A DNA stretch of 52,703 nt. It comes from Clostridia bacterium (GTDB taxonomy: Bacteria; Bacillota; Clostridia; Oscillospirales; CAG-272). Shown in pieces: positions 45,755 through 52,703 of this stretch (position 1 is the stretch's first letter; each line of letters starts with the position of its first letter). The stretch is from NCBI GenBank assembly GCA_017517745.1, contig JAFWYJ010000048.1, positions 1 through 52,703 on the forward strand, in the 5' to 3' direction. Below the pieces are notes generated by a model. That model had not been told where the DNA came from. It did no database searches and saw only the letters and a list, made by a program, of their open reading frames with translations. The translations under genes were made by a program, and so were the position numbers.

Positions 45755-46177
45755 TTAAAGTCCCAATTCTTCGAGCTCCGCAAGAATGGAGGAAATGTCC
45801 TCCTGCTCCTTCAACTCCGTGTAAACGCTCTCCGACCAGATCTCGGCATAATCGCAACAGCCGATGATGACGACGTTCTTCTCAAGCGTCGCGTGACTCA
45901 CAAGCTCGGGAGGCAGTACCACGCGTCCCTGGGAGTCGGGCACGACCTGTGCCATCGACGAATGCAAAAAACGGATGATCTTTTCGGAAAGCTTGCGCTT
46001 CTGATCGCGCAGGGGCTTGATGTAATCCTGCCAGCCCTCGAGCGAATAGACCTTGAGACATTTCTCTCTGATGTCCTTCGCAATGACCAACGTGTCTCCG
46101 AGTTCCTCGCGCAGCTTTGCGGGAATGAATATTCGATTTTTCGCGTCCAGACTGTGTCTGTATTCACCGCCGAGCAT
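45755..46177 (-). CDS. mraZ: Transcriptional regulator MraZ
   Basis: 140 aa from the ATG at 46177 (AAGGAGG upstream); the longer frame includes the operator region. Two SpoVT/AbrB-like repeats: MLGGEYRHSLDAKNRIFIPA and the second DSQGRVVLPPELV. MraZ forms a ring that binds GTGG repeats upstream of its own operon and represses it in several species; such repeats lie at 46217-46261. Confidence 0.96.
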   Translation of the reverse strand: MLGGEYRHSLDAKNRIFIPAKLREELGDTLVIAKDIREKCLKVYSLEGWQDYIKPLRDQKRKLSEKIIRFLHSSMAQVVPDSQGRVVLPPELVSHATLEKNVVIIGCCDYAEIWSESVYTELKEQEDISSILAELEELGL

Positions 46178-46216
46178 CGCGCGTTCCTCCTTGTTGATCT
46201 TCCCGGTGTTTTTTCT

Positions 46217-46261
46217 CCACTGACGCTCCACTTTGAAACATCAGACACCACTTTCCACCAC
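46217..46261 (-). promoter_or_regulatory. MraZ-binding GTGG repeats
   Basis: On the minus strand GTGG occurs at 46261-46258, 46251-46248, 46231-46228 and 46220-46217 (plus one at 46258-46255). Spacings of 10, 20 and 11 bp place them on one DNA face. Two have the extended form AAAGTGG. They lie just downstream of the -10 box, enclosed by a CCCGGTG/CACCGGG inverted repeat (46202-46208, 46259-46265). Confidence 0.75.
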
Positions 46262-46272
46262 CGGGTAACTAT

Positions 46273-46483: not shown

Positions 46484-46512
46484 TTGACGATTATTACAAA
46501 ATATGTTATACT
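46484..46512 (+). promoter_or_regulatory. Promoter of the helicase-nuclease gene
   Basis: TTGACG (46484-46489), 17 bp, TATACT (46507-46512), leader of about 55 nt with AGAAAGGA before the ATG. A CGGCAA...TTGCCG inverted repeat (about 46437-46476) immediately upstream could be a regulator site. Confidence 0.8.
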
Positions 46513-46572: not shown

Positions 46573-49500
46573 ATGGAACAAACCCCGAAAAACATTGCCG
46601 GCGAAGAGCTTTTTGAAGAGCTGATCGACCTGCGTCAGCGGTTGAAAGACCGTGAGAAAAAGGCGACCGGACGTACACCCGTCATCTGCAGCGATGACTC
46701 CATCCGAGAAATCGTGCGCCTTCTGCCGCGCAAGCCATCGGATTTCTTCAGCATTCCTGGAATCGGCCCCGCCTTTGTGGAAAATTATGCGCAGGCGTTT
46801 CTCGACGTACTCGACGACCACAACGGAAACCGCGAGACCGCCGAGATCCCGGTCAGCAAAAACGTGGAGGAAACCCTGCGCGAGCTTTCCAAAAAGCTGA
46901 TCAACATCAACCGCAACAACCGCATGCTTTTCCTCCCCAAGCTTTCGGCAAAGTATGCTGTCGATCTCTTCGACGCCACGGGAAGCTATAACCCTTTGCA
47001 AATTCTGTTTGACGGGGACAAGCCGATCACCATCGCCGACGTTTCCTCTCAGGATCTCCCCCGCACCGATCCCGCCCGAGATCGCTATCGCGCACTGATC
47101 GGACTCATCCGAGAGACCGTGAGAGACCTTCGCGACAAGGGACAAAACGATCTTTACGTCGGCTATCCCTTCGTGGAGGGCACGTTGGTCAACGGTGAAT
47201 TCGGAATCCGCGCACCGCTTTGTCTCTTCCCCGTCACACTGGATCGCTCGACCGCCAACATCACGGTTGCCGCGGATCACACGCGCGATATTATTTATAA
47301 TGGTACGCTGATTTTGGCGCACGACAAATTCAACAGCCTCGCCAAGCCCCTGCCCGACTGCACCGTGGAGGATGCAACACCCGACAACTTTTTGCAAGGG
47401 CTCTTGGATTTCTATGCCGAAAACGATATCCGCATCGAATATGACAGCGACGAGCTGACAAAATTCAAGGAATATCCGGGCGACTCCTTCCCGCGTCACG
47501 CGCGAGGTTCACTCAAGCTGGTACACAACGTCGTCATCGGAAAATTCCCGGCTTACTCCAACACCATCCAGCGCGATTTTGAGGAAATTCTGGAAAAGGG
47601 CTTGGTCAACAAGCTGGTTTCCGATCTGGTTTCCGACTACGGTGCCACCGATTTCTATTCCGATCAGACCAACACCGATCTCGAGTTGAATCACCCCGAC
47701 AAAAAGCAGCAGAGCATCAGCGAAAATTCGTTGGTCTACATCAACGCGCTCAACAGCGCGCAGGAGGCGGTTCTGCACGCTGCGGAAACGATGGACGAGC
47801 TGGTTGTCGAGGGCCCTCCCGGCACGGGTAAATCTCAGACCATCACCAGCTTGATCACCCAATTCGTCAACGAGGGCAAAACCGTCCTGATGGTTTCCGA
47901 GAAAAAGACGGCTTTGGACGTGGTCTATTCCCGTCTCGGCACACTGTCGAGATACGCCATGATGATGGACGATGCCAACAACAAAAATCTCTTCTATTCA
48001 CAGCTCGAACGCCTGCTTTACAGCACCGATGCGAATGCGCCGCTGCAAGCCCCCGATCTGAGCATGCTCTCGGGCGAGATCGACACCGACGTGGCAACGT
48101 TGGAGGTGATCGCGGACAAGCTCTTTACGCCGAGCGAGTTCGGTGTGGAGCCTTATCTGCTCTACATGGAAAATCGCCGCGTGAATCTGCAGAATCACGA
48201 GCAAATCAAAACCTACAAAACCATCCGCACCATGATCACCGAGGCGCTGATGGCACTCAAATACGATGAGATCACGGCGATCCACAAAAAGTTTGCCAAC
48301 GGACAGCTGACCGACAGTCTCGATCTCTATCAGCTGACCGTGGAACGATACCCCTGGTTCTTGAAAATGAAGGACTCGCTTTCCAACTACGATCTCATTC
48401 TCTTCTCCGACTCGATCGACGAGCTGATCCTGAAGGTGGACGAGTGGCGGAATCGCTCCTTCTTTGGTCGCATGACCTCCAAGGGACGCCTCTCGCGCGA
48501 CATCACGCAGGCAACCAAGGCATATTTTGACAAAGCGACGAATGCCTATCTCATCCGTCTGATCATGGAGCAACCCGAGGCTGTCAAGCAGAGCTTGAAG
48601 GAATTCACCGTCGGCTACGCCAACCTCAAGCCGGTTGTGTCGAGCCTGACCGAAAATGAAAATCTCTATCTCACGGCACTCCGAAAGATCCACAAAATCT
48701 GCGGCGGTACCGTCGTCGAATGGAACGACGAGCTTTATAACACCATTTTGTTCGAGCATATCCAACGCTTTGAAATGGACAATCGCACGCTGATGCCCAA
48801 GGTTGCCTCCTTCGAGAAGATCATTGCCTCGATCGAACGCGCGATCGGCGAAAAGCAGGCGCTCTCCAAGCAACGAATCATCAAGGTGTTGGCGGAGGAT
48901 ATCAAGTATATCACCGGCTCCAAGCGCAAGGGCGAGATCACGCGCGCCATTGAAAGCCGCCGTCGCTCCAGCGTTTCCAAGTTTGTCAAGAAGTTTGATT
49001 TTGAGCTTTTCAAGGCGATCAAGATCTGGCTGATGACGCCCGACGCGGTTTCCGAAGTGTTGCCGCAGCAAAACGATCTGTTTGACCTGTTGATCTTTGA
49101 TGAGGCTTCTCAGCTTTACGTGGAAAAGAGTATTCCCTCGATCATTCGCGCCAAGAAGGTTGTGATCGCGGGCGACCACAAGCAGCTTCGTCCCTCCAGC
49201 CTCGGTGACGGGCGCTTTGAGTTTGACGACGATCTCTTCGATGAGGACGCGGAGATCTCCGCGGCACTCGAGGAAGAAAGCCTGCTCGATCTGGCTCGTT
49301 TCCGTTATCCCGACATTCTGCTCAACACACACTACCGCTCCAAATACGAGGAGCTGATCGATTTCTCGAACTACGCGTTCTACAAGGGTCGTCTCTTCGT
49401 GGCTCCCAACACCGACGAGCCAGAAAAGCCCCCCATCGAGGTTCACCTTGTCAAAAATGCGCTTTGGCAAGGACGCTCCAACCGTCAGGAAGCAGAACGT

Positions 49501-50349
49501 GTCGTCGCGCTTATCAAGGAATTCTTCAACACCCGAAGAAACAACGAGACGATCGGTGTGATCGCCTTCAATGCCGCACAGCGTGACATGATTTACGACA
49601 TCATCGACGAGGAATCGCTCAAGGATCACAATTTTGCCATGCAGGTTCGCGCCGAAATGTCGCGCAAGGACAACGGTGAGGACACCGGTCTCTTCATCAA
49701 AAACATCGAAAGCGTACAGGGCGACGAGCGCGACGTCATCATGTTCTCGATCGGCTATGCAAAAAATACCAGCGGAAAGCTGGTTCACAATTTCGGCTGG
49801 CTCAACCAGAAGGGTGGCGAAAACCGCCTCAACGTTGCAATCAGCCGCGCCAAGCAAAAGATTCACATCGTCACCTCCTTCCGCCCCTCCGAACTTGACG
49901 TGGAGAGTGCCAAGAATGACGGACCGAGAATCCTCAAGCGCTATCTGGAATATGCTTTTGCCATCAGCAACGGAGACCGCGAAGACGCCGAGCGCATTCT
50001 CCGCTCCTTCGGTGAAACCTTCGGCATCACGCCCGCGGCGATTGAAACCGAGTATGCGCAAAAGGTTGCGGATGCCCTGCGCGATCGCGGCTACGAGATC
50101 GACACGCAGGTGGGTATCGGCGGTTACCGCATCGATATTGCCGTTCGCAAAAACGGAAAATACGTTCTCGGCATCGAGTGCGACGGAAAGCTTTACAGCA
50201 CTGCCGCCTCGGCACGCGAGCGCGACTACCACCGTCAAAAATACCTCGAATCCCGCGGATGGCGAATCAAGCGCATCTGGAGCATGGATTGGTGGCGCGA
50301 TCCCGATACCGAAATCAACAACATCTGCGCCTTGGTGGACAGCCTATAA
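46573..50349 (+). CDS. HRDC - DUF4011-like - SF1 helicase - Vsr-like nuclease fusion (candidate defence protein)
   Basis: 1258 aa, soluble. Domains in order: HRDC (about 10-92, with SDDSIREIVRLLP and SIPGIGPAFVENY); a DUF4011-like stretch (ELSKKLININRNNRML, about 105-140) in a larger N-terminal region; an SF1 helicase with Walker A EGPPGTGKS (413-421), Walker B DEAS (843-846), GDHKQLRPS, THYRSKYEELIDF, ESVQGDERDVIMFSIGY and NRLNVAISRAKQKIHIV; then a PD-(D/E)XK nuclease of MTES_1575/Vsr type with D1188, E1202 and D1204 (IECDG) and the WRIKRIWSMDWWRDP end. Helicase-Vsr fusions with DUF4011 (the Hhe type) protect against phage. It has its own promoter and terminator. A housekeeping repair role remains possible. 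Confidence 0.88.
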   Translation: MEQTPKNIAGEELFEELIDLRQRLKDREKKATGRTPVICSDDSIREIVRLLPRKPSDFFSIPGIGPAFVENYAQAFLDVLDDHNGNRETAEIPVSKNVEETLRELSKKLININRNNRMLFLPKLSAKYAVDLFDATGSYNPLQILFDGDKPITIADVSSQDLPRTDPARDRYRALIGLIRETVRDLRDKGQNDLYVGYPFVEGTLVNGEFGIRAPLCLFPVTLDRSTANITVAADHTRDIIYNGTLILAHDKFNSLAKPLPDCTVEDATPDNFLQGLLDFYAENDIRIEYDSDELTKFKEYPGDSFPRHARGSLKLVHNVVIGKFPAYSNTIQRDFEEILEKGLVNKLVSDLVSDYGATDFYSDQTNTDLELNHPDKKQQSISENSLVYINALNSAQEAVLHAAETMDELVVEGPPGTGKSQTITSLITQFVNEGKTVLMVSEKKTALDVVYSRLGTLSRYAMMMDDANNKNLFYSQLERLLYSTDANAPLQAPDLSMLSGEIDTDVATLEVIADKLFTPSEFGVEPYLLYMENRRVNLQNHEQIKTYKTIRTMITEALMALKYDEITAIHKKFANGQLTDSLDLYQLTVERYPWFLKMKDSLSNYDLILFSDSIDELILKVDEWRNRSFFGRMTSKGRLSRDITQATKAYFDKATNAYLIRLIMEQPEAVKQSLKEFTVGYANLKPVVSSLTENENLYLTALRKIHKICGGTVVEWNDELYNTILFEHIQRFEMDNRTLMPKVASFEKIIASIERAIGEKQALSKQRIIKVLAEDIKYITGSKRKGEITRAIESRRRSSVSKFVKKFDFELFKAIKIWLMTPDAVSEVLPQQNDLFDLLIFDEASQLYVEKSIPSIIRAKKVVIAGDHKQLRPSSLGDGRFEFDDDLFDEDAEISAALEEESLLDLARFRYPDILLNTHYRSKYEELIDFSNYAFYKGRLFVAPNTDEPEKPPIEVHLVKNALWQGRSNRQEAERVVALIKEFFNTRRNNETIGVIAFNAAQRDMIYDIIDEESLKDHNFAMQVRAEMSRKDNGEDTGLFIKNIESVQGDERDVIMFSIGYAKNTSGKLVHNFGWLNQKGGENRLNVAISRAKQKIHIVTSFRPSELDVESAKNDGPRILKRYLEYAFAISNGDREDAERILRSFGETFGITPAAIETEYAQKVADALRDRGYEIDTQVGIGGYRIDIAVRKNGKYVLGIECDGKLYSTAASARERDYHRQKYLESRGWRIKRIWSMDWWRDPDTEINNICALVDSL

Positions 50350-50361
50350 TTTTCTGACTCC

Positions 50362-50397
50362 GTGGAGAAAACGCGCCGTCGTTTTCTCCACTTTTTG
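50362..50397 (+). terminator. Terminator of the helicase-nuclease gene
   Basis: GTGGAGAAAACG, 6-nt loop, CGTTTTCTCCAC, then TTTTT, starting 12 nt after the stop codon. Confidence 0.92.
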
Positions 50398-50522: not shown

Positions 50523-51104
50523 ATGAAAACAAAAGAACACCTCTCCGACGAGGAGATCATAGAGCTTTATTGGATCCGTAACGAAAAGGCAATCGACGCC
50601 ACCGACAGCAAATACGGAAAATATCTCTATACGATCGCCTATAATATCGTGCACAATCACATGGACTCCGAGGAATGTGTCAATGACACCTATCTCGGCA
50701 CGTGGAATCGGATTCCCCCCGAGCGTCCAAACCTGTTGCAGGTGTTTTTGTCGAGGATCATGCGAAATATCGCAATCGACAAATTTCGCCAAAACACGGC
50801 GACCAAGCGCGTTCCTTCCGAACTGCAGATTTCACTGGACGAGCTTGATGAGTGCATTGCAGACGTTTCCGAAAACGAGCGCTATCTCATGGACGAGATC
50901 GCAAAAATTCTGAACGGATTTTTGCAGGAGTTGAACGAGCAGGACGAATTCATCTTCGTCTGCCGCTACTATTACTCTGACCGCATCAATGCCATCGCAA
51001 AAATGCTCAAGACCTCAGAAAAAGAGGTTAGCCGTCGACTCGCGGCACTCCGAAAGGATCTCAAGCAACGCTTGGAAAAGGAGGGGCATTACTTTGAAAA
51101 ATAA
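50523..51104 (+). CDS. ECF-type RNA polymerase sigma factor
   Basis: 193 aa, ATG with TAAGGAGG 5 nt upstream. Sigma region 2 (about 25-95) includes YLYTIAYNIVHN and ECVNDTYLGTWNRIPPERP; region 4 (about 135-185) has IAKMLKTSEKEVSRRLAALRKDL. It directs RNA polymerase to a small regulon. A TATAAT at 50484-50489 (in TAATATAATTA) could be its -10, but the -35 position is only T-rich. The stop overlaps the next gene by 11 nt, the layout of a sigma/anti-sigma pair. The -35 recognition helix ends in a basic RKDLKQRLEKEG tail. Confidence 0.9.
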   Translation: MKTKEHLSDEEIIELYWIRNEKAIDATDSKYGKYLYTIAYNIVHNHMDSEECVNDTYLGTWNRIPPERPNLLQVFLSRIMRNIAIDKFRQNTATKRVPSELQISLDELDECIADVSENERYLMDEIAKILNGFLQELNEQDEFIFVCRYYYSDRINAIAKMLKTSEKEVSRRLAALRKDLKQRLEKEGHYFEK

Positions 51105-52703
51105 GAACGATTGGAAGCTTGATCTTCTCTCCAAGATTGACGATGAAATCATCGAGCGCAACACCCAAAAGCGCTGTCTCCGTCTCAAAAAGCTGGCGCT
51201 TCGCCGTCGCGTGCAAAGGATAACGGGCGTTTCCGCCGCGGCGGGACTGTTGCTTGTGTGCGGCGTGATCTTCGTATTGTTCTCACTGTTCTCCAAGCAG
51301 GTTCCGGTCTACCTCGGCATGACCATCTCCTCTGCCGAGTCGCAGGTTGGCATGTCGACAGAGCATACGGTCACCCCGCTTTCGGCACCGATCAGCTATG
51401 CCGTGCAGACGTTCGCTCACGGCGAAGAACACCAACCCAAGCCACCCCACGGTGACGTTGCCGGAGTGCCCGCGCACAAAAACGAAAACCTGGACGATGC
51501 CGGCAAGAACGCCGAAGACGCCGCAGGCAACACGCTGCAGGTATCAGGCAGCGGTGCGGACATCTACTACGCCAAGCCCAACGAGGACATCTACATCACC
51601 ATCCACATCGACAACCCCGACAGCTTTGAAATCTTGTCATTCACCCTCAACGGCAAAAAGTATTCTTCCTATATGTTCGAGGAAGGCTCGGACATGGAAA
51701 ATCTGATTCTCAAGGTCAACGTCGGCGACGCCGAAGGTGTGGTGGAATATACCATCGACGCCATCAAATACGTTGACGGAACCGCCATCAAGGACGTTCG
51801 CATGGAAGGCGACAAGACGGTGCGCGCGGGCGTTGCCACCGACCGTCAACCCGCTGCCGTTCTCTTTGGTGAGCGTGTTGATTTCTTCAACGTCAGCTTC
51901 AACGTCAGCATCACCGACTCGCTCGACCTGATCGCCAAGAGCCAAGGAAAGCTCTATGCGATGATCTATGACGGCGAGAACGTGCTTGCCATCAATGAGA
52001 TTTCCCCCTCTGAGATCTCCAACGTCTCCTTTGACGGTTTGATGCCAAACACGACCTACCAATATGCCGTCGGCGCGTATTATGACAAGCTGGACGGAAC
52101 AGGCATGGGACTCTACGTCTTGAACGTCAAGACCTTCACCACCAAAGCCCCCGTCCTGTTTGAAAATCTGCAAATTTCCACCACGCAGGTCAATTTCGAA
52201 TTCCTTTGGGATCAAGCGTTTGCAAACAAGCAGATCTCCGCACTCACCCTCTACCGCGGGGAAGAAAAGGTTGCTGACGTCGATCCCGACGCGACAAGTC
52301 TGACCGATCTGCTTTCCAACACGGCGTACACGCTGGTCGCCGAATATCGCGACGGCAACAATACGTCCCGATTGATCTCGATGGAATTCGCCACGGCGGC
52401 AAAAGCAATTCCCTCTCTCGTTCTGACCTCCAAGGACGTGACTCAAACGAGCTTTGGCTTTGATGCCAAGGTGCTTGACGTGGACGCCGTCGGTTCCATC
52501 ACTGCCATCGAACTGCTGCACGGCAATGACGCGCCCGTTCCCGCGGCAAGCCTCGACGTGCGCAGCTTTGACGGATTGCTTTCCAACAACGATTACACCG
52601 TCCGCGTCACCTATACCTATGATCTGAACGACGGCACGGGTGCGCATACCATCGTCAAAGATCTGACCGTAAAGACCTTGGCAAAAGCAACGCCTTCCCT
52701 CGC
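51094..52703 (+). CDS. Membrane-anchored anti-sigma-like protein with repeated FnIII-like ectodomains (partial, runs off right edge)
   Basis: Open from a TTG at 51094 (AGGAGGGG 8 nt upstream) to the window end, at least 536 codons. Its N-terminus MKNKNDWKLDLLSKIDDEII plus basic residues (about 45 aa) is cytoplasmic; the TM helix is about 46-66. A low-complexity His/Pro/Asp linker (about 105-145) leads to one beta domain (about 145-235), then at least three ~90-aa FnIII-like repeats with recurring TFTTKAP, EFATAAKA and TVKTLAKA borders. Overlap with the ECF gene points to a role in holding or releasing that sigma factor in response to an outside cue; no known anti-sigma motif is visible. Only internal ATG fragments of it look like separate short ORFs. 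Confidence 0.75.
   Translation, partial: MKNKNDWKLDLLSKIDDEIIERNTQKRCLRLKKLALRRRVQRITGVSAAAGLLLVCGVIFVLFSLFSKQVPVYLGMTISSAESQVGMSTEHTVTPLSAPISYAVQTFAHGEEHQPKPPHGDVAGVPAHKNENLDDAGKNAEDAAGNTLQVSGSGADIYYAKPNEDIYITIHIDNPDSFEILSFTLNGKKYSSYMFEEGSDMENLILKVNVGDAEGVVEYTIDAIKYVDGTAIKDVRMEGDKTVRAGVATDRQPAAVLFGERVDFFNVSFNVSITDSLDLIAKSQGKLYAMIYDGENVLAINEISPSEISNVSFDGLMPNTTYQYAVGAYYDKLDGTGMGLYVLNVKTFTTKAPVLFENLQISTTQVNFEFLWDQAFANKQISALTLYRGEEKVADVDPDATSLTDLLSNTAYTLVAEYRDGNNTSRLISMEFATAAKAIPSLVLTSKDVTQTSFGFDAKVLDVDAVGSITAIELLHGNDAPVPAASLDVRSFDGLLSNNDYTVRVTYTYDLNDGTGAHTIVKDLTVKTLAKATPSL

Follow-up and report, generated by a model that had tools for sequence, protein, structure and literature searches.

An HRDC-bearing DUF4011 helicase-nuclease beside mraZ in a genus of Clostridia: a candidate single-gene surveillance enzyme

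Background

The closest described relatives of the gene treated here are anti-phage proteins: Hhe (Gao_Hhe), which combines DUF4011, a superfamily 1 (SF1) helicase and a Vsr-type nuclease, and ProA, which has a similar helicase and nuclease core. Hhe-type proteins also carry DUF3320 and HEPN domains. In a stretch of 52,703 nucleotides from a Clostridia bacterium (contig JAFWYJ010000048.1, GenBank assembly GCA_017517745.1; this whole stretch is called the window below), a gene next to mraZ encodes a helicase-nuclease of this general kind with an HRDC domain in front. The current work describes its domains, its occurrence in related genomes, its surroundings and the function that it may have.

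Other relatives differ in what accompanies the core. According to the accessible part of PMC3710099, MTES_1575 of Microbacterium contains HEPN, transglutaminase, SF1 helicase and Vsr-type endonuclease domains and 2 winged-helix (wHTH) domains. The window protein has the same nuclease family and an SF1 helicase and carries HRDC, and a Pfam scan of its 1258 residues gave no match to DUF3320, HEPN, wHTH or transglutaminase. Hachiman HamAB, in which helicase sensing of the DNA state is coupled to a nuclease (available part of PMC12278908), is a works-like analogy and not a homologue, and it consists of two proteins instead of one. The HRDC-bearing form is not described in the accessible portions of PMC11291487, PMC12458937, PMC12242098 and PMC13249269. 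Literature searches, which mostly covered papers outside subscription, found no description of DUF4011 with helicase, Vsr and phage or of DUF4011 with HRDC, and none of "HRDC domain" with anti-phage, of ProA as an anti-phage helicase or of PDC-S37, a candidate phage-defence protein in PADLOC.

Domain structure of the protein

The protein is an intact fusion of HRDC, DUF4011, an Upf1-like SF1 helicase and an MTES_1575 nuclease (coordinates in Table 1). HRDC (PF00570), DUF4011 (PF13195) and REase_MTES_1575 (PF18741) all score above the Pfam gathering cut-offs, and AAA_11 (67.8 bits) and AAA_12 (73.2 bits) each exceed their curated cut-offs; the DUF4011 alignment spans profile positions 64-154 of 158 only. 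A Walker B motif, DEASQ, at residues 843-847 lies just upstream of the AAA_12 match. A profile of 11 full-length homologues, compared with solved structures, found SMUBP2, Sen1 and NAM7/Upf1 as the closest helicases, and this likeness, together with the Walker A and the DEAxQ-type Walker B motifs, assigns the motor to the Upf1-like SF1 helicases.

The HRDC front end, proposed in an earlier note on this DNA from the letters alone, proved to be real. It is above the Pfam cut-off in all 21 carriers of the genus and recurs in three other families. A profile of 17 HRDC rows retrieved the RecQ HRDC structures 1wud (E 5.2e-8) and 2rhf (E 3e-5), the second of which a single HRDC sequence reached at E 0.46 only, and no RNase D chain was matched among the solved structures at E up to 1. 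The helicase and nuclease, said by the same note to be complete, are also intact. K420, D1188, E1202 and D1204 are invariant across 18 orthologues, and in a wider set of 11 homologues K420 and D1204 are invariant while D1188 and E1202 are kept at 90% or more.

Relation to known defence models

The best PADLOC match was PDC-S37 (559.6 bits, E 4.6e-168; score taken without a PADLOC threshold). The best matched stretch, residues 746-1256, is the helicase-nuclease end and leaves HRDC outside, and similar scores (536-620 bits) were obtained for five scanned homologues, whether or not HRDC is present in them. Hhe was matched at 294 bits in PADLOC and at 411 bits by the NCBIfam model NF042953, with an equivalog cut-off of 2000, and ProA (NF058533) at 568.1 bits with a cut-off of 1500. 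Membership of Hhe or ProA was rejected, as both scores are far under the cut-offs. The models are also longer, with 1797 positions for Hhe and 1903 for ProA, and HRDC lies outside the best ProA match and is an addition relative to Hhe.

A defence protein with HRDC has a precedent: models of DpdF, from the Dpd defence system, match the window HRDC, the C-terminal end of DpdF aligning with residues 11-84 at 24.8 bits (PADLOC). The best match is confined to HRDC, and no common helicase or nuclease match was listed. RecQ shares the HRDC family as well; its HRDC is C-terminal to an SF2 helicase, whereas here the domain is N-terminal to an SF1 helicase-nuclease. Judged by these comparisons, the protein is new as an HRDC-bearing form of the DUF4011-helicase-MTES_1575 kind, of which the core is already known.

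Distribution and inheritance

Orthologues with 65-89% identity over the matched pieces were found in 20 of the 34 other genomes of the genus, giving 21 carriers with the window's own genome. The 20 carrier relatives are metagenome-assembled Clostridia or Oscillospiraceae, 14 of them labelled as herbivore gut samples. The gene is full length or nearly so in 18 of the 21 carriers and split by contig ends in 3, and no stop occurs in any matched place. It adjoins mraZ in 20; in the other (G015) the contig breaks off short of mraZ. A second copy in G008 was considered and rejected, since the two pieces overlap with 100% identity over 156 residues and represent one gene split by contig ends. In G002, two pieces (G002:C117 and G002:C122; L021/L044 and L025/L046) share an 81-residue overlap that is only 74% identical, and two alleles or a mixed genome bin are possible.

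The earlier note had set the idea of defence against a gene conserved as a single copy at this locus in all relatives. The place beside mraZ in 20 of the 21 carriers goes partway towards that refutation, but 14 of the 34 other genomes are without the gene. Among these non-carriers mraZ was found in 13, and 12 with 1.4 to 9.9 kb of N-free sequence beyond mraZ show no trace of the helicase-nuclease; G028 offers only 80 bases beyond mraZ, G006 (61% complete, mraZ not found) is uninformative, and many genomes of the genus are incomplete. In four non-carriers (G007, G010, G014, G021) mraZ is followed by the genes that flank the far side of the gene in carriers. Absence of the gene with an intact site indicates that it is dispensable, as defence genes are. 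In G012 the mraZ-side gap holds a pair of genes that we take, from their sequences, to be BlaI/BlaR1-like, and in G001 the beginning of a presumably BlaR1-like gene (L083:3534-6177, L089:4145-4624); the mraZ-side spot thus takes different insertions.

On a tree of mraZ, rsmH and ftsI, presence and absence required 5 changes, compared with a mean of 11.6 in shuffles, and at least 2 are forced by well-supported branches; the tree is a quick one of 35 rows, with long outgroup branches and eight rows under half filled, so these numbers of gains and losses are rough. The clearest loss is that of L078 (no gene), nested with L036 (gene) at 96% support. Either vertical descent with several losses or a small number of gains at one site would account for the pattern, and the tree cannot distinguish between the two; the gene is apparently a vertically inherited single gene in this genus. 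One carrier, G005 (L020), is deepest in a quick gene tree, where a long-branch warning applies, but the species tree places it next to L040 (86% support). Its ftsI is 64-71% identical to all those compared, and allele exchange is possible.

Outside the genus the HRDC form is sparse. A survey of 196 genomes of the family found the full-length form in this genus only, and six partial matches outside it. A combined HRDC and DUF4011 profile detected the joined form in 3 other genomes among 394 of the order (G255, G372 and G116), and among 398 genomes of the phylum in the window's own only. These three belong to three other families, and their proteins are 47-50% identical to the window protein over the full length. 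The remaining matches of these searches were mostly HRDC only, in frames of RecQ-like length, and four genomes (G314, G593, G658, G475) matched the DUF4011 part without HRDC. Among 40 genomes from the genus to which G255 belongs, one has the HRDC form, and 16 others have more distant partial relatives only, 14 of them in longer frames. The homologue of G255 sits between rplQ/rpoA and DUF6106-like/DacA/TsaD genes, that of G372 has one PfkB among otherwise unassigned neighbours, and that of G116 lies by an M16 peptidase near a contig end. The occurrence of the fusion in four families beside different genes suggests that it is older than its placement beside mraZ in this genus.

Proposed function and alternatives

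The HRDC domain binds single-stranded or branched DNA, Upf1-like SF1 motors move 5' to 3' on a strand, and Vsr-type PD-(D/E)XK domains cut DNA. With about even confidence, we consider the protein a single-gene, DNA-directed helicase-nuclease, constantly expressed as a chromosomal surveillance enzyme that would degrade foreign or damaged DNA such as that of replicating phages. Anti-phage restriction is the function that we favour for it, with a housekeeping role on DNA as a possible alternative. HRDC may hold single-stranded or branched DNA as it does in RecQ, the Upf1/SMUBP2-like motor would travel along the strand so held, and the MTES_1575 nuclease would cut the DNA being moved. Such an enzyme would be self-contained, gripping exposed DNA, translocating and cutting, and may be a formerly mobile anti-phage enzyme that has turned into a vertically inherited gene in this genus.

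Defence is ranked first on three grounds: the relatives of the protein, the fact that the gene is dispensable, and its scattered occurrence beyond the genus. The best named relatives (PDC-S37, ProA, Hhe) are anti-phage or candidate models. Also counted for defence are the intact motifs, the sparse HRDC form outside the genus, the promoter-like site described below, the relatives on plasmids and the restriction-modification genes beside one relative. Of 72,556 plasmid records, 347 carry relatives of the helicase-nuclease end, and 207 of these 347 are conjugative; the wider family is therefore mobile. A compact relative without HRDC (L159:5050-18854) lies directly beside a type I restriction-modification set (HsdR-HsdS-HsdM); on its opposite flank, two genes off, is a type IV-like gene, and the region is a possible defence island. 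Near another compact HRDC-less relative (L161), one gene weakly matches a candidate-defence model (63 bits), and for two more (L157, L158) no defence match was found among the two genes scanned for each. The HRDC form so differs in context from at least one HRDC-less relative, the contexts being few.

Several results weigh against a defence function. The gene is fixed beside mraZ in nearly all carriers instead of lying in defence islands or on mobile elements. Nine genes surrounding the HRDC form and one from a non-carrier site were screened with PADLOC, which gave no clear defence gene and a single weak LeoA match (23.7 bits), to a FeoB-like GTPase. Pfam likewise revealed none in ten genes around the other three HRDC homologues, the neighbours in G255 having been scanned by Pfam only. 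No plasmid match covers 80% of the protein, 1 of 50,697 phage records matched, at the helicase-nuclease end only, and a scan of viral_contigs with two short peptide patterns found no relative. Among the 15 carriers with long enough contigs (105 pairs), the mean pairwise identity of the protein is 79%, compared with 68% for MraZ, 76% for RsmH and 71% for FtsI. Its identity exceeds that of MraZ in 96 of the 105 pairs, that of RsmH in 78 and that of FtsI in 91. Such slow evolution is unusual for an arms-race gene. Spearman correlations of its identities with those of the three proteins are 0.54, 0.39 and 0.68, and residues 800-1105 are best conserved (89%), with HRDC lower (65%). All P. aeruginosa isolates have a DUF4011 gene that flanks a defence hotspot (available text of PMC10250203), and Gao Hhe is missing from only one V. 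europaeus strain (accessible part of PMC13249269); as far as these portions go, a fixed locus and near-core status are compatible with defence. Of the earlier proposal of a stand-alone defence system, what stands is a single gene related to anti-phage proteins, while the low Hhe and ProA scores, the fixed place beside mraZ and the few neighbours without a clear defence gene tell against it.

Repair is ranked second because of the slow evolution and the fixed locus. The protein could be a lineage-specific housekeeping enzyme of repair or recombination that acts on stalled forks or recombination intermediates, perhaps doing RecQ-like work in a genus without recognisable RecQ, a reading that we consider possible but less likely than defence. 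The window's own genome (97% complete) has no RecQ above cut-off (best 36.4 of 219.8 bits) and its sole HRDC is in this gene; clade-ordered presence, conservation above the dcw proteins and the place of the G255 homologue between rplQ/rpoA and DUF6106-like/DacA/TsaD genes point the same way. However, many relatives cleanly lack the gene, and none of the 14 non-carriers of the genus has an HRDC match of any kind, so that loss of RecQ is not matched one to one by presence of this gene. Replacement of RecQ is on this count not supported. A second HRDC match was seen in one carrier, G017, in a frame of 101 residues. A similar balance applies to AddA. In G020, a carrier with a good assembly (94% complete), the AddA model gives just a short match (338-480 of 1234), and AddA, unlike in most of the genus, may there be missing or unassembled; it is not recognisable in three carriers, with short matches only in G009 and G020 and none in G017. 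Against this, the AddA model is matched in 59 of 60 genomes (threshold E 0.001), with 13 above cut-off, though the short ones may be PcrA-like, and long matches are found in carriers and non-carriers alike, the window's own genome scoring 607 bits with a cut-off of 708. Replacement of AddAB was likewise not supported, many of the matches being full length but under cut-off.

An RNA-directed, Upf1-like helicase-nuclease of RNA surveillance or decay, with HRDC binding RNA as in RNase D, is improbable. HRDC is found in RNase D too, and some of the closest solved helicases act on RNA, but the HRDC profile matched RecQ and not RNase D chains among solved structures at E up to 1, and DNA is the usual substrate of PD-(D/E)XK/Vsr-type nucleases. 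Least probable is that the protein is an ordinary Hhe or ProA without distinguishing features: the core domains are the same and the NCBIfam scores substantial, whereas the distance to the cut-offs, the shorter length, the extra HRDC and the missing DUF3320/HEPN all speak otherwise. Surveillance and restriction of foreign DNA remain our preferred reading. A combined form of it, in which a distinct HRDC-bearing subfamily would be a domesticated anti-phage helicase-nuclease, constitutive and vertically inherited in a genus without recognisable RecQ and serving both genome maintenance and intrinsic immunity, seems unlikely as a whole.

Gene setting

The earlier note gave the gene its own promoter and terminator, an orientation opposite to the dcw operon and no partner genes, and all of these agree with what was found. 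The promoter-like site starts 89 bases upstream of the ATG, and four such sites were found in the examined region where 0.8 were expected. All 20 upstream regions examined in the genus (every carrier but G026) have a TTGAC and extended -10 TATACT site, compared with 2% of single-base shuffles; the pattern was drawn up after alignments of 13 of the 20 regions had been viewed, so the 2% figure is a guide only. In those alignments the stretch is among the best conserved. The gene and mraZ are divergent, and the gene points away from mraZ.

Table 1. Features of the helicase-nuclease locus in the window
Feature	Coordinates	Strand	Basis
HRDC-DUF4011-SF1 helicase-MTES_1575 nuclease gene	46573..50349	+	open frame, 1258 residues; Pfam; orthologues
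HRDC domain, residues 11-80	46603..46812	+	Pfam 39.7 bits (cut-off 23.8); profile matches to RecQ HRDC structures
DUF4011 match, residues 158-246, partial profile	47044..47310	+	Pfam 28.8 bits (cut-off 22.2)
Helicase N-terminal motifs, Walker A GPPGTGKS with K420	47752..47943	+	AAA_11 match; invariant in orthologues
Helicase C-terminal core AAA_12, residues 912-1101	49306..49875	+	Pfam; invariant residues; Upf1/SMUBP2/Sen1-like by Protein Data Bank profile
MTES_1575 Vsr-type PD-(D/E)XK nuclease, residues 1162-1253; D1188, E1202, D1204	50056..50331	+	Pfam 113 bits (cut-off 38.2)
Promoter-like TTGACG-17-TATACT, extended -10 TG	46484..46512	+	site search; 20/20 upstream regions; alignments of 13 carriers
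Intrinsic-terminator-like hairpin and T tail	50362..50396	+	2 sites in region, one per strand; 0.4 expected
mraZ, first gene of divergent dcw cluster, fixed neighbour	45755..46183	-	Pfam MraZ 94 bits; adjacency in carriers

The next gene downstream, at 50523, encodes an ECF-type sigma factor and was matched in the window's own locus only among L001-L046. In 6 of 16 carriers drawn, the next gene is one we take to be DUF4097-like, followed, where the contig is long enough, by presumably DHHW-like and MBOAT-like genes. Because the downstream gene differs in this way between carriers, no conserved partner gene was seen among the compared loci, several of them being truncated where contigs stop. 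In the window (50523-52703) the sigma factor is followed by an overlapping frame that runs past the window end, likely with one membrane span and fibronectin-like repeats.

Upstream of mraZ, at 46225-46263, are repeated CTCCACTTT and CACCACTTT-like units (reverse strand AAAGTGGNG), which are kept with small changes in the mraZ upstream regions of 13 aligned carriers. They resemble MraZ operator boxes and lie more than 200 bases from the promoter-like site of the helicase-nuclease.

Implications

If the gene is protective, it would be an immunity gene with the genetics of a housekeeping gene, and such genes would be missed by screens based on islands or patchiness. If it is not, it would mark a route by which defence helicase-nucleases turn into core DNA-maintenance enzymes. 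Either way, the HRDC domain offers a concrete guess at how DNA may be gripped in the large and poorly understood DUF4011 family.

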